This document shows, one piece after another, positions 4,170 to 9,734 of a DNA stretch of 12,979 nt (within the stretch, counting starts at the first letter, position 1; each line of letters begins with the position of its first letter). The notes beneath the pieces are model-generated. The model saw only the letters and a program-made list of their open reading frames with translations, was not told the origin of the DNA and did not search any database. This DNA comes from an uncultured Flavobacteriales bacterium (lineage in GTDB: Bacteria > Bacteroidota > Bacteroidia > Flavobacteriales_D > Parvicellaceae): the NCBI GenBank assembly GCA_937924345.1, contig CALDTD010000213.1:1-12979 (forward strand), given 5' to 3'. A program made the position numbers and the translations under genes.

Positions 4170-6911
4170 TTAAACTTTTTCCTTAGCCAATTGCATTAAC
4201 TCGTCTAAAACAGCTTGGTGACGAAGTGCAGCTACTTTTGAAGATCCACTAGCTGGACTTGCCGAACGTCTGGTTGAAGCAACATCTAATTGTACCCCAA
4301 GTTTTTTCCAAAAACGGTGACGAGACTGAATAAAACGCCAAGCTCCCATATTCTCTGGTTCTTCTTGTGCCCAAATATAATTAGCTTCCGTTCCGTATTT
4401 AGCAACTATTTCTTCTAATTGTTTTGCTGGTAATGGATATAACTGTTCAACTCTTACAACCGCAATATTTTCTCCTGCCCCTAGCTTTTCTTTTTCTTCG
4501 ACGATGTCGTAATAAAACTTACCACAAACCATCACTACTGTGTCAACTTCTTTTGCATTTACAGTAGTGTCGTCTATCAATTCTTTAAACCCTCCATTTG
4601 CTAAATCACTAATCTTAGATACAGCAGCGGGGTAACGTAATAATTTCTTTGGTGTGAAGACAACTAGTGGTTTTCTGAAGTCACGCTTCATTTGCCTTCT
4701 TAATAAGTGAAAGAAGTTTGATGGTGTTGTACAGTTTGCAACTTGCATGTTTAAATCGGCACATTGTGTTAAGAAACGCTCCATTCTACCACTGGAGTGT
4801 TCAGAACCCATTCCTTCATAACCGTGTGGTAATAACATTACCAAACCATTTTGAGTATGCCATTTATCTTCTGCAGCACTAATGTACTGATCGACCATAA
4901 TTTGTGCTCCGTTAAAGAAATCTCCGAATTGAGCCTCCCAAATTGTTAAGCTATTAGGAGTAGAAAATGCATAACCATAATCAAATCCTAAAACACCATA
5001 TTCTGATAAAAGCGAGTTATAAACTTCGAATTTAGCTTGACCTTCCTCTAGATTATTTAATGTAATTACATCTTCTTCTGTATCTTCTGTTTTAACAACA
5101 GCATGACGGTGTGAGAACGTTCCTCTTTCTACATCTTCTCCAGATAAACGAATATGATGTCCTTCTGTTAATAGTGAAGCATAAGCTAACATCTCTCCCA
5201 TTCCCCAGTCTAAGCGATCTTCTTCAATCATGTTTACTCTATCTTTCAATAGTTTAATGATTTTTCTGAAGTATTTTTTCCCTTCAGGTAATGTCGCTAA
5301 TTTTATTCCTAATTCTTTTATACGTTCTTCAGGTATAGAAGTATCTGGTGAAACTAAGAAATCTTCTTTTGTTCCGTGCTTAAACCCTTTCCATTCTTCT
5401 TCTAAAAAGTCTGTGATTTTTGCTTTTTTAATTTCTTTTGCATCGTCTAAACGATCTTGAAGCATATCATCGAAATTCTTTTTCAAAATTTCTCCTTCTT
5501 CTTTCGTTACTACCCCTTCTTTTACCAATTTATCTAGGTAGATTACTCTTGGGTTTGGATGCTTAGAAATTGCTTTATATAACTTCGGCTGCGTAAATTT
5601 AGGCTCATCTCCTTCGTTATGCCCATACTTTCTGTAACATAGTAAATCTATAAATACATCTCTATTGAAAGTCTGGCGATATTCTAAAGCAATTTCCATT
5701 GCTAATACAACAGCTTCTACATCATCTCCATTTACATGAAAAACAGGACACAAAGTTGTTTTTGCTATATCGGTACAATAGGTACTAGAACGCGCATCTA
5801 AATAATTCGTTGTAAAACCAACTTGGTTATTAATTACAATATGAATTGTACCTCCAACGCGGTATCCATCTAACTGCGCCATTTGAATAACTTCGTAAAC
5901 TATTCCTTGACCTGCTATTGCAGCATCTCCGTGAATTAAAATAGGAACAATTTTCTTTTCGTCACCACCTAAATCATGATCAATTTTTGCTCTAGTAATC
6001 CCTTCTACTACTGGGTTAACTGCTTCTAAGTGAGATGGGTTAGGAGCTAACGTCATTTTAATATCCTTACCAGCATCTGTAGTAATGTTACAGGTATAAC
6101 CCAAGTGATATTTTACATCACCATCAAACAAAGCATCTTCGTATTCCTTACCTTCAAACTCACTAAAAATAGCCGAATAAGTTTTGTTAAAGATATTTGC
6201 CAATACATTTAAACGGCCTCTATGTGCCATTCCCATTACAAACTCTTCTACTCCAAGTATAGAACCTTTCTCCATTAAAAAGTCTAACGCTGGTATTAAT
6301 GCTTCTGCACCTTCTACAGAAAAACGCTTTTGACCAACAAACTTTTTGTGTAAGAACTCTTCAAAAACACTAGCCTGATTCAGCTTATGTAAAATATGCT
6401 TTTTATCTTCTGTTGTAAATTTAAGTCTATTTTTAAGCTCAATTTTACTTTTAATCCAATCTACTCTTTTTGGGTGACGAATATATTGATACTCAATACC
6501 TATAGAACGGCAGTAGGTTTGCTCTAAATGGGCAACAATATCTTTTAATGTTGCTGGACCTATTTTAATTTCCTCTCCTGCTTGAAAAACAGTATTCAAA
6601 TCTGACTGATTTAGACCAAAGTTTTCTAAAGCCAATGTGGGTTCGTATTTTCTTCGCTCTCGAACTGGGTTAGTATCTGTAAAAAGATGTCCTCTTTCGC
6701 GATATCCGTTAATTAACTGGATAACTTTAAATTCCTTCTGAACGTTTTCTGGAATTGCACCATCTACGTCATAATTTTCTTTTGCAAAATTGAAGCCCTC
6801 AAAAAAGGCTGCCCAGCTCTTATCTACTGAATTAGGGTCTTGTGAATACTGAGCGTACAACTCTTCTATTGCACTTCCCTCAGCATTGCTTAGGTATGAA
6901 TATTTGTCCAT
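4170..6911 (-). CDS. odhA: 2-oxoglutarate dehydrogenase E1 component
   Basis: This 913-residue thiamine-diphosphate enzyme decarboxylates 2-oxoglutarate and passes the succinyl unit to lipoyl-E2 in the TCA cycle. The length is close to that of other SucA proteins (about 930). An N-terminal E1 helix motif lies at 5-40 (YLSNAEGSAIEELYAQY, WAAFFEGF). The ThDP/Mg domain includes MAHRGRLNVLAN (228-239), APNPSHLEAVNPVVEG (289-304), HGDAAIAGQGIVYE (328-341) and YGHNEGDEP (429-437). The transketolase-like pyrimidine domain carries LSGEDVERGTFSHRHA (589-604), LLPHGYEGMGSEHSSGRMERF (split around 693-713) and AQEEPENMGAW (848-858). The ATG at 6911 gives the expected N-terminus. The gene heads the odhA-odhB unit and follows a good -7 box. 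No catalytic motif appears damaged. Confidence 0.97.
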   Translation of the reverse strand: MDKYSYLSNAEGSAIEELYAQYSQDPNSVDKSWAAFFEGFNFAKENYDVDGAIPENVQKEFKVIQLINGYRERGHLFTDTNPVRERRKYEPTLALENFGLNQSDLNTVFQAGEEIKIGPATLKDIVAHLEQTYCRSIGIEYQYIRHPKRVDWIKSKIELKNRLKFTTEDKKHILHKLNQASVFEEFLHKKFVGQKRFSVEGAEALIPALDFLMEKGSILGVEEFVMGMAHRGRLNVLANIFNKTYSAIFSEFEGKEYEDALFDGDVKYHLGYTCNITTDAGKDIKMTLAPNPSHLEAVNPVVEGITRAKIDHDLGGDEKKIVPILIHGDAAIAGQGIVYEVIQMAQLDGYRVGGTIHIVINNQVGFTTNYLDARSSTYCTDIAKTTLCPVFHVNGDDVEAVVLAMEIALEYRQTFNRDVFIDLLCYRKYGHNEGDEPKFTQPKLYKAISKHPNPRVIYLDKLVKEGVVTKEEGEILKKNFDDMLQDRLDDAKEIKKAKITDFLEEEWKGFKHGTKEDFLVSPDTSIPEERIKELGIKLATLPEGKKYFRKIIKLLKDRVNMIEEDRLDWGMGEMLAYASLLTEGHHIRLSGEDVERGTFSHRHAVVKTEDTEEDVITLNNLEEGQAKFEVYNSLLSEYGVLGFDYGYAFSTPNSLTIWEAQFGDFFNGAQIMVDQYISAAEDKWHTQNGLVMLLPHGYEGMGSEHSSGRMERFLTQCADLNMQVANCTTPSNFFHLLRRQMKRDFRKPLVVFTPKKLLRYPAAVSKISDLANGGFKELIDDTTVNAKEVDTVVMVCGKFYYDIVEEKEKLGAGENIAVVRVEQLYPLPAKQLEEIVAKYGTEANYIWAQEEPENMGAWRFIQSRHRFWKKLGVQLDVASTRRSASPASGSSKVAALRHQAVLDELMQLAKEKV

Positions 6912-7061: not shown

Positions 7062-8783
7062 TTAACTCTGCAATATTTGGCTAATTAATGAAACACTAAA
7101 AACACTCAATAAAAACCAACCTAAAAAACCTTCTAAAATAACAATATATCGAGACAATCCTGCAACTGGAATATCGCCAAACCCCAATGTAGTATATGTA
7201 TTTATACTAAGAATAATACTATTGAAACTCCTTACAAGAAATAAATACAAGAAATAAAAAAGTAAAGCTATAAATGTTAAGAACCCAAAATAAACCTTCT
7301 TAAACATAGATAAGTCTTCCCACCTACCTTTTAAGAATTCTATACTTTTATAAAGCGTTTTATTCCATGTTAATTTCGATACAGAAAAGAAATATACAGG
7401 ATAAAGAAATAAATTAAAAAAGAAAGGGATTTGTGATTTACTATTTTCAATATTAAACTTGAACTGGCTGTAAATTTTTAAATTTTCTTTATGTTTTGCA
7501 GAGTACAACTCTTCTAATTTTTGCTCCGTTGTATAGTAGCCAATTAATTTCTCACCCTGCCCTATTAAGTATTTACTACTAATTTTATCCCATTCACTTG
7601 GAGAGAAAAAGTAAAAACATGCAAAACAAAGTATTACCCATATAGAGACTTGTATAGAACGTACGGGACTCGTGCCGTAGTTAGCAAAAAACTTCAGGAA
7701 TCTATTGAGGTTAAAATAAAGATAGTTCTCAAAATTTTTATTTTGCTTATACTTCTCTTTTAGTTTTTATGTCTTTATGTCTTTCATTTCTACATAACAA
7801 CCGTTTGCGGCAGTTAAGTTTCCTCTACTTCTATATATGTTAAATAGTTTGTTGTAACTTGCAATTAGTTAACTGTAGATATAATCTGGAGAATTAGAGC
7901 TATGAGGATTTTTCACACCGAGCTTCTCTCCTTTAATAAGATCCCAAGGAATATAAGCCGATTCGGACCTAACGTTTATATTCTCTATATAAAACTCTTC
8001 CTTAATTTCAGTAGAATTGATATACAACGCATCCAGAACTGTTAGACTGGACAAGTCAATATTAGTGCAGTTTACTTTATCAATTTTTACCTTCCCAAAT
8101 TTACCATTAAGTATAATGGAAAGATCTTTATCAAAAAAATGACAATTACTAATCTTAACCTCTTCTACTACTTCTAACACAGAATTGCCAATTCTTAAAG
8201 AAGCTAAACCACTATAGTTTGATGGTATTTTTGGAGTCTCAAAACGACAAGAAGAAATGAATAAAATTGAAAGTGGTGTTTGCTTTTCGTTAAAAAAACT
8301 AGCGTAATCATAAAACTGATTACTGTTCACGAAAATATAATTGAAGGAAGTTACCATTATAGTTCCACGAAAATCAGAATTATAAATATTACATGGTCTA
8401 TACTCATCAGGTGTTTCCGATTTACCTCCGTAAATATTTAAATTACTGGACACTTCAACACTGTCAAAAGAAAAACTAATAGATTTTGGCTCTAAATATA
8501 GGTTAAGTGTAACAGAATCAGGAAAATAAACTTTAGTGTTGATCAAGTTTATTTTGCTGAACAATTCTATATCAATATTATTTTTCACATAACCATCATG
8601 GTCTGAAAAAAGGACAGTATCACCTTCTTCAAATTGGATAACAGCATTTGAAATGTTTATAGAATTAGTATCTAAACAAAGTGAGCTAAAAGCTCTAAAG
8701 TTTAGTGTATCTACTTTGCTTTCTGCAAAAACAAAAACTGTTAGAAAAGAAAGTAAGCAAAGTGCTAAATACTTAAATATCAT
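7062..8783 (-). pseudogene. Secreted beta-solenoid plus potassium-channel gene interrupted by two in-frame TAA codons
   Basis: All 574 codons from ATG 8783 to TAA 7062 are in one frame, broken by TAA at 7869-7871 (codon 305) and 7767-7769 (codon 339). Part A (1-304) starts with a signal peptide (about 1-20) and continues as alternating short beta-strands with many I/L/V-x-N/S steps, like a right-handed solenoid. Part B (33 codons) reads as an amphipathic helix with YNKLFNIYRSRGNLTAANG and CYVEMKDIKT. Part C (234 codons) has a membrane helix at 376-393 after NYGTSPVRSI, another at about 497-517, the potassium selectivity filter TLGFGD (532-537) in a pore loop, and a last helix at 546-566, as in Ion_trans_2 channels. 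The hydrophobic stretch near 451-470 is ambiguous. Part C has no ATG before codon 493; the TTG at 7508 would omit the first membrane helix. The best reading is one periplasmic-sensor channel gene inactivated by two point nonsense changes. TAA readthrough or sequence error are alternatives. It lies 48 bases after the TIGR01777 gene. Confidence 0.8.
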
Positions 8784-8831: not shown

Positions 8832-9734
8832 TTACTTATAAATATCTTTTAGTGCTTCATCTAATTTTGGAAACTCAAACTCAAAACCAGCATTAAGTAA
8901 CTTTTCAGCAGAAACATGACTACCTTTTAGCACTATATCAGATAACTCTCCATAAATAGTTCTTAAAACAAACGCAGGTACATTTGGTAAAAATAATTTA
9001 CGATTTAGTGCTTTTGCAATAGCTTTTGTTACGGCTTCATTATCAACTTTTTCGGGAGCTACAGCATTATAAACTCCATTAAAACTATTGTCTAATAAAA
9101 TATCTAAATACAATTGTGCCATATCATCTAAATGAATCCAGGGCATAGCTTGTTTTCCTGTCCCTATTGGAGCACCTATTCCATACTTAACAGTTTTATC
9201 CATTTTAGCTAATGCTCCACTGTTTTTATCAAGTACAACACCAGTTCTCAACTTTACAACCCGTGAAGAAATATCCGAAAATTGATCTGCGCTTTTCTCC
9301 CAGTAAATACAACTTTTTGCAATAAAATCGTTATGTGGTTCATCAGCCTCCTTAAAAACTTTAGCTGTTGTAATTGCCCCATAATACCCAATACCAGAAG
9401 CAGAAATATAGGCGTTTAAAGAATGGTTTAGTTTTTTTAATGTTTTAAAAATAAGATTAGCAGTTTCTACCCTACTTTTAATAATTGTATGTTTACGAGA
9501 CATTGTCCAAGGCTTATCTGCTATTCCTGCACCAGCAAGATGTATAATATCTGTAACTCCATTAAAGCATGCTTCATCAATTTCCTCTTTTTTCCAGTCC
9601 CATTTATAAACCTTAATTCCAAACTTAGAACTTGGGCTTCTAGAAAGGTGAACAACCTCGATGTTTTTTTCTTGTAATAATTGTGTTATCCTTGTACCTA
9701 TTAATCCTGATCCTCCTGTAATTAAAACCTTCAT
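8832..9734 (-). CDS. TIGR01777-family NAD(P)-binding epimerase-like protein
   Basis: This 300-residue cytoplasmic protein belongs to the atypical extended short-chain dehydrogenase group related to E. coli YfcH and human SDR39U1. The N-terminal Rossmann dinucleotide-binding loop is GGSGLIG (7-13), followed by SRSP (31-34), which may contact the NADP phosphate. HLAGAGIADKPW (65-76), SASGIGYYG (111-119), LRTGVVLD (162-169) and PWIHLDD (198-204) are family hallmarks. Residues from about 245 to 295 match the C-terminal DUF1731-type region (LPNVPAFVLRTIYGE, then SDIVLKGSHVSAEKLL and AGFEFEFP). The substrate is unknown for the family. The ATG gives the N-terminus directly at the first Rossmann strand. 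It is preceded by a hairpin touching the start codon and followed by the broken channel gene, with no functional link apparent. Confidence 0.92.
   Translation of the reverse strand: MKVLITGGSGLIGTRITQLLQEKNIEVVHLSRSPSSKFGIKVYKWDWKKEEIDEACFNGVTDIIHLAGAGIADKPWTMSRKHTIIKSRVETANLIFKTLKKLNHSLNAYISASGIGYYGAITTAKVFKEADEPHNDFIAKSCIYWEKSADQFSDISSRVVKLRTGVVLDKNSGALAKMDKTVKYGIGAPIGTGKQAMPWIHLDDMAQLYLDILLDNSFNGVYNAVAPEKVDNEAVTKAIAKALNRKLFLPNVPAFVLRTIYGELSDIVLKGSHVSAEKLLNAGFEFEFPKLDEALKDIYK

Follow-up and report, generated by a model that had tools for sequence, protein, structure and literature searches.

The window, a stretch of 12,979 bases that makes up one complete contig (G000:C213:1-12979), carries on its minus strand, between positions 8783 and 7062, three open segments that share one frame and are separated by two TAA codons. 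The question raised by this locus is whether these segments are one gene or two, and whether the stops end its function, shorten its product, are passed by ribosomes, or are errors of the assembly. Alignment to intact relatives shows that 8783-7062 is one gene in origin, and the gene has probably been inactivated recently by nonsense substitutions, leaving a young pseudogene of a solenoid/ion-channel fusion.

An Interrupted Reading Frame

Read as its reverse complement, 7062-8783 spans 1722 bases, a multiple of three, and forms one 574-codon frame without a frameshift. The only stops in this frame are those at codons 305 (TAA, 7871-7869), 339 (TAA, 7769-7767), and 574 (TAA, 7064-7062); the remaining two minus-strand frames contain 51 and 75 stops over the same interval. 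The open segments between the stops comprise 304, 33, and 234 codons in a common frame, and the second internal TAA begins 102 bases after the first, leaving 99 bases (33 codons) between the two. The frame check thus bore out the original prediction of two in-frame TAAs with 99 bases between them, one frame, and no indel. The segments and the TLGFGD filter motif (codons 532-537) were also as it had described, except that the position given there as the end of the first open reading frame, 7869, is the final base of stop codon 1, the coding part of segment 1 ending at 7872. The features of the locus are as follows:

4170..6911, minus strand: downstream neighbor, full-length 2-oxoglutarate dehydrogenase E1 (sucA-type) gene with a TAA terminator (open frame, Pfam, full-length match to relatives)
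7062..8783, minus strand: whole interrupted gene, 574-codon frame with two internal TAAs, putative solenoid plus ion channel (frame check; alignment to intact single-frame homologs)
7872..8783, minus strand: segment 1, codons 1-304, signal-peptide-like start (by eye) and predicted beta-solenoid domain (model of the intact homolog L028 and VIA-align matches of that model)
7869..7871, minus strand: internal stop 1, TAA, codon 305, aligning to L028 residue 326, a variable column in intact homologs (frame check, alignment)
7770..7868, minus strand: segment 2, 33 codons, conserved helical linker (YNKLF..RGN..AANGCYVEMKDIKT), same frame continuing (alignment, L028 model, coding-like in frame)
7767..7769, minus strand: internal stop 2, TAA, codon 339, aligning to L028 residue 360, a variable column in intact homologs (frame check, alignment)
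7065..7766, minus strand: segment 3, 234 codons, remaining linker, membrane helix, loop, and pore module (Ion_trans_2, PF07885; Pfam, alignment)
8832..9734, minus strand: upstream neighbor, full-length NAD-dependent epimerase/DUF1731 gene with a TAA terminator (open frame, Pfam, full-length match to relatives)

Both internal stops sit in the linker between the beta-solenoid and the Ion_trans_2 pore, and, of the three segments, only segment 1 would be expected to be translated from a start of its own.

Intact Homologs and the One-Gene Question

A search of 39 genomes of the same taxonomic family, the window's own included, with the window frame (X at the stops) recovered the whole protein in one 615-codon open frame in each of the two closest relatives in the family (G018 and G010); the remaining matches were weak (E 6.5e-6 or worse). 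Profile searches at the order level (399 genomes) and the phylum level (395 genomes), with E<=1e-10 and at most three candidates scored per genome, give lower bounds, and place the gene in at least 7 and at least 10 genomes, respectively, the window's own being counted in each. In two further orders, the gene was found in 10 of 123 and 12 of 44 genomes (E<=1e-20). Altogether, the four profile searches returned 41 distinct match rows besides the window, corresponding to 40 frames (one genome, G582, gave two rows for one frame). None of these 40 other homologous frames from the same phylum contains an internal stop, and 37 are at least 551 codons long, the short ones being a frame of 277 codons in G427 and two pieces in G861 (280 codons to the contig end, and 52 codons).

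All 18 aligned intact homologs run in a single frame through the region, with a residue at the stop 1 column in 17 (one gap) and at the stop 2 column in all 18; the residues at these two columns vary among the homologs and all are sense. This set excludes a near-duplicate (L029), a truncated member (L043), L027, and the window; L037 and L038, though near-duplicates, are both kept in it. Segment 2, between the stops, matches a conserved YNKFF..RGD..SANxCYVExKDIET block, and the best identity of any homolog to the window is ∼46%, over the channel part. Taken with these alignments, three same-frame open segments that line up end to end with single-frame homologs are not a chance layout. The single gene that had been proposed is therefore upheld by homologs continuous in one frame across both positions, and homologs existing only as two separate genes, which would have spoken for the opposite, were found nowhere in what was searched.

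One more distant relative, from a contig labelled Flammeovirgaceae, also carries a stop: L027:3416-5176 (plus strand) has one in-frame TAA at codon 186 (L027:3971-3973), the frame being kept after it, and its filter motif is TLGFGA. The L027 and window stops look independent, because the tree separates L027 from the window and the stop lies at another position in the protein.

Several side observations concern the family at large. Two genomes (G116 and G679; L033-L036, L046, L048) each have three full-length members of the channel family. The truncated member from G427 (L043, G427:C1) is open for 277 codons, and the filter motif of the solenoid-channel family is absent from all six frames of that locus. 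A more distant solenoid-plus-channel group (L005-L024), with frames of ∼475-601 codons and filters that mostly read GYGD/GYGE, is present in many genomes of the same taxonomic family and was not included in the counts.

Domain Architecture of the Family

In the family, a helical linker joins a beta-solenoid to an Ion_trans_2 pore. In the window, segment 3 matches Ion_trans_2 (PF07885) at 22.5 bits, equal to the cutoff of 22.5 (E 1.1e-4), and segment 1 has no Pfam match of its own at E<=0.1. Among 13 intact family members other than the window copy, Pfam detected Ion_trans_2 in 12, Pentapeptide_4 in five, and Pentapeptide_3 in two. The structure model of L028 has beta strands from residue 90 to 299, and on this modelling the N-terminal half of the family is predicted to be a beta-helix fold. 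No sequence match of the family to a solved structure was obtained at E<=0.01, and Foldseek against the PDB gave no match at E<=0.001. The first membrane helix in the window frame is WVILCFACFYFF, from codon 382. Intact relatives would have a signal peptide, an external beta-helix, a helical hairpin, an inward membrane helix, a cytoplasmic loop, and a channel module made up of outer helix, P-loop, and inner helix, and the family presumably has channel activity.

In potassium channels, the residue after the GFG/GYG filter is usually D; in this family the residue after the GFG/GYG motif varies and may be D, E, K, R, Q, A, or N. The NCBIfam model for Hailong HalA (NF051894) was matched by one of the 13 members (E 0.00049). 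An anti-phage assignment was considered and rejected, as PADLOC placed none of the 13 in an anti-phage system and a literature search on Hailong showed nothing on point. A phage-borne gene was likewise rejected: a scan of viral contigs yielded 76 pattern-matching stretches, none encoding a relative.

Genomic Context and Distribution

The source assembly comprises 1,893,518 bases in 381 contigs and is 57.8% complete. Seven further long genes on the contig have open frames and Pfam matches: TPR/SpoIIE, sucB-type, sucA-type, epimerase, SulP transporter, DUF983, and DUF4290. The first of these, an open frame at 294-2672 with TPR repeats and a SpoIIE phosphatase domain, adjoins the sucB-type gene, and between 4170 and 9734 the sucA-type, channel, and epimerase genes share one strand. 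The order differs in G010, where the epimerase and sucA-type genes (L084) are divergent neighbors with no channel gene between them; the channel gene of G010 is located elsewhere in the genome, away from this pair.

Six congeners (83-95% complete) had no match to the channel gene at E<=0.001, so the gene looks dispensable in the genus. At the corresponding loci, the epimerase flanks (6/6) and sucA-type flanks (5/6) carry other genes, with no piece of the channel by tblastn (E<=1e-3); a counterpart at this position in the sister species was thus rejected on the readable flanks, several of which are short because of contig ends, those of the nearest congener spanning only 0.9 and 1.6 kb. This nearest congener is 93% identical in the sucA-type protein and 84% in the epimerase. 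The distribution of the gene is patchy, which fits dispensability.

Consequences and Age of the Stops

The ancestral state would have been one gene for a secreted-solenoid/ion-channel fusion protein, and nonsense substitutions in the window lineage would have inactivated it. Translation from 8783 would end at codon 305, so that the product could be no more than an exported solenoid of 304 residues lacking a membrane anchor; linker, membrane helices, and pore would not be made, because the second stop follows 33 codons on and there is no start codon near the channel segment. When ATG, GTG, and TTG only are considered, the first start-like codon past stop 2 is a TTG at 7508 (codon 426), 86 codons into the segment, by which point the first membrane helix has been passed. 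Stop 1 is followed by a start-like codon 27 codons later, and the sole ATG between the stops reaches stop 2 after five further codons.

Two nonsense hits imply 38-47 neutral substitutions, or 2-3% of the gene. With 195 of the 571 sense codons one step from a stop, two random nonsense sites would fall as close as observed with P ∼0.12; with indels assumed at 0.05-0.2 per substitution, the probability of no frameshift is 0.06-0.37 and that of no indel 0.03-0.26. Both the closeness of the stops and the missing frameshift are within chance. At the 24 columns invariant among the 18 intact rows, the window departs once, and segment 2 departs at neither of its two; when the intact rows were left out singly, they gave zero to five such departures, with 12 of the 18 at none. 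A single departure in 24 would be expected after a change of 2-3% but equally without any; it is compatible with no decay and also with replacement of up to ∼15-20% of residues, and the retained conserved residues would also be compatible with continuing selection on the full protein.

Recent nonsense inactivation, which the original prediction had ranked as likeliest, is supported by the single-frame homologs and by the lack of a nearby restart codon. Strain-specific loss, which it had also allowed, may have occurred and is the same event at the population level. Besides the retained conserved residues, it counts against a pseudogene that stop 1 falls just past the solenoid domain, as a functional truncation would also give, and that a second family member, L027, also has an in-frame TAA with its frame kept. 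The anatomy of the frame, the homology across both stops, and the missing nearby restart codon are shown, and that the gene is dead is inferred; the observation is real, and the event would be of an everyday, ordinary kind.

Alternative Explanations

That segment 1 is a secreted solenoid and segment 3 a separate channel gene merely in the same frame is extremely improbable. Segment 1 does have its own start and segment 3 a recognized channel domain, but homologs run in a single frame through both positions, segment 2 is conserved coding sequence, and no ATG, GTG, or TTG would start the channel half while keeping its first membrane helix; the two-gene reading was rejected on the single-frame homologs and the missing start. 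That one or both stops arose from an assembly or consensus error, or from a minority haplotype in a population whose copy is intact, is unlikely but carries a small, appreciable chance, since the assembly is fragmented (57.8% complete, 381 contigs) and the window is one whole contig. Against such an artifact or polymorphism stands a screen for split genes in ∼102 kb of unmasked sequence, covering 16 of 20 sampled contigs (L098, L099, L107, and L112 being wholly masked) and the window, in which coding-like sequence continued past 14 of the 119 coding-like frame ends. Of these continuations, the 12 outside the gene each reach a start-like codon within 25 codons and can be taken, on their start codons alone, for the next gene, whereas stop 2 of the window alone lacks one for 86 codons. 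As the only such case in the screen, it indicates that stray nonsense errors do not look common in the assembly, although its scale is small and stop 1 by itself would have escaped it, given the start-like codon 27 codons later. The idea that the 304-residue exported solenoid is kept as a soluble stand-alone protein, the channel half being dead, is improbable. It agrees with the position of stop 1 in the linker, past the predicted solenoid, and with the signal-peptide-like start kept by segment 1; however, no complete solenoid-only gene of the family appeared in 961 genome scans (overlapping sets, searched with whole-length profiles and, in the order and phylum sets, at most three scored candidates per genome). 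Nor do the three frames below 551 codons among the 40 offer one: that of G427 covers linker and loop, G861:C188:3-785 is a solenoid piece running to the contig end, and the 52-codon piece of G861 belongs to the pore.

Regulated readthrough or recoding, in which translation would proceed through both TAAs to yield small amounts of the complete channel, is highly improbable. In its favor, the reading frame continues across both stops with most conserved residues retained, the distant relative L027 also has one in-frame TAA, and one published survey reports that in-frame stops with dN/dS below 1 are widespread in bacteria and argues that many are not pseudogenes (PMC7918605). Two TAAs would nevertheless have to be passed in series, and the stop positions are not common to the two cases (codons 305 and 339 in the window, codon 186 in L027); none of the 40 other frames has an internal stop, and intact homologs have varied sense residues at the two columns. 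TAA is also the main terminator: each of the seven further long genes checked in the window ends with it, as do 42 of 57 coding-like frames sampled from the assembly, and on these counts a changed meaning of TAA was rejected as well. A TTA anticodon was absent from the 12 tRNA genes found in the 57.8%-complete assembly (ARAGORN on 11 loci, the twelfth tRNA lying inside one of them). The original suggestion of regulated readthrough thus found no support in the aligned homologs or the tRNA genes, and its suggestion of phase-type silencing fared no better: the gene has a single match in the assembly, with no second copy and no donor seen, and only short imperfect repeats surround it (judged by eye, without a chance control), so phase switching was rejected. 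There is a very slim chance that in-frame stops serve the family, or are tolerated by it, as on/off or low-expression alleles, the window and L027 TAAs being independent, dosage-lowering changes in a coding sequence under selection. Recent inactivation by nonsense substitutions is the reading we prefer.

Significance and Comparison With Known Systems

If inactivation is the right reading, the case in itself matters little: a single uncultured lineage would be losing a dispensable channel gene of patchy distribution. The locus does draw attention to a protein family of the Bacteroidota in which a small channel appears to be fused to an exported beta-helix, with no solved relative found by sequence, and the intact family members would be worth testing.

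Like the two-helix potassium-type channels (PF07885), the window gene encodes a P-loop with TLGFGD between two helices, but it is predicted to have an additional upstream membrane helix and a long loop. With the Bacteroidota solenoid-plus-Ion_trans_2 proteins it shares the domain order, the linker motif, and the TLGFG/TLGYG filter, and it differs from the intact ones in its two internal stops. The bacterial genes for which readthrough is proposed in PMC7918605 likewise combine an in-frame stop with a retained coding signal, whereas the window gene has two serial stops and no homolog stop at the same position. With bacterial nonsense pseudogenes, it shares intact homologs, a frame otherwise kept, premature stops, and an expected truncated product; it departs from the typical case in having two close stops and no frameshift, both of which are within chance.
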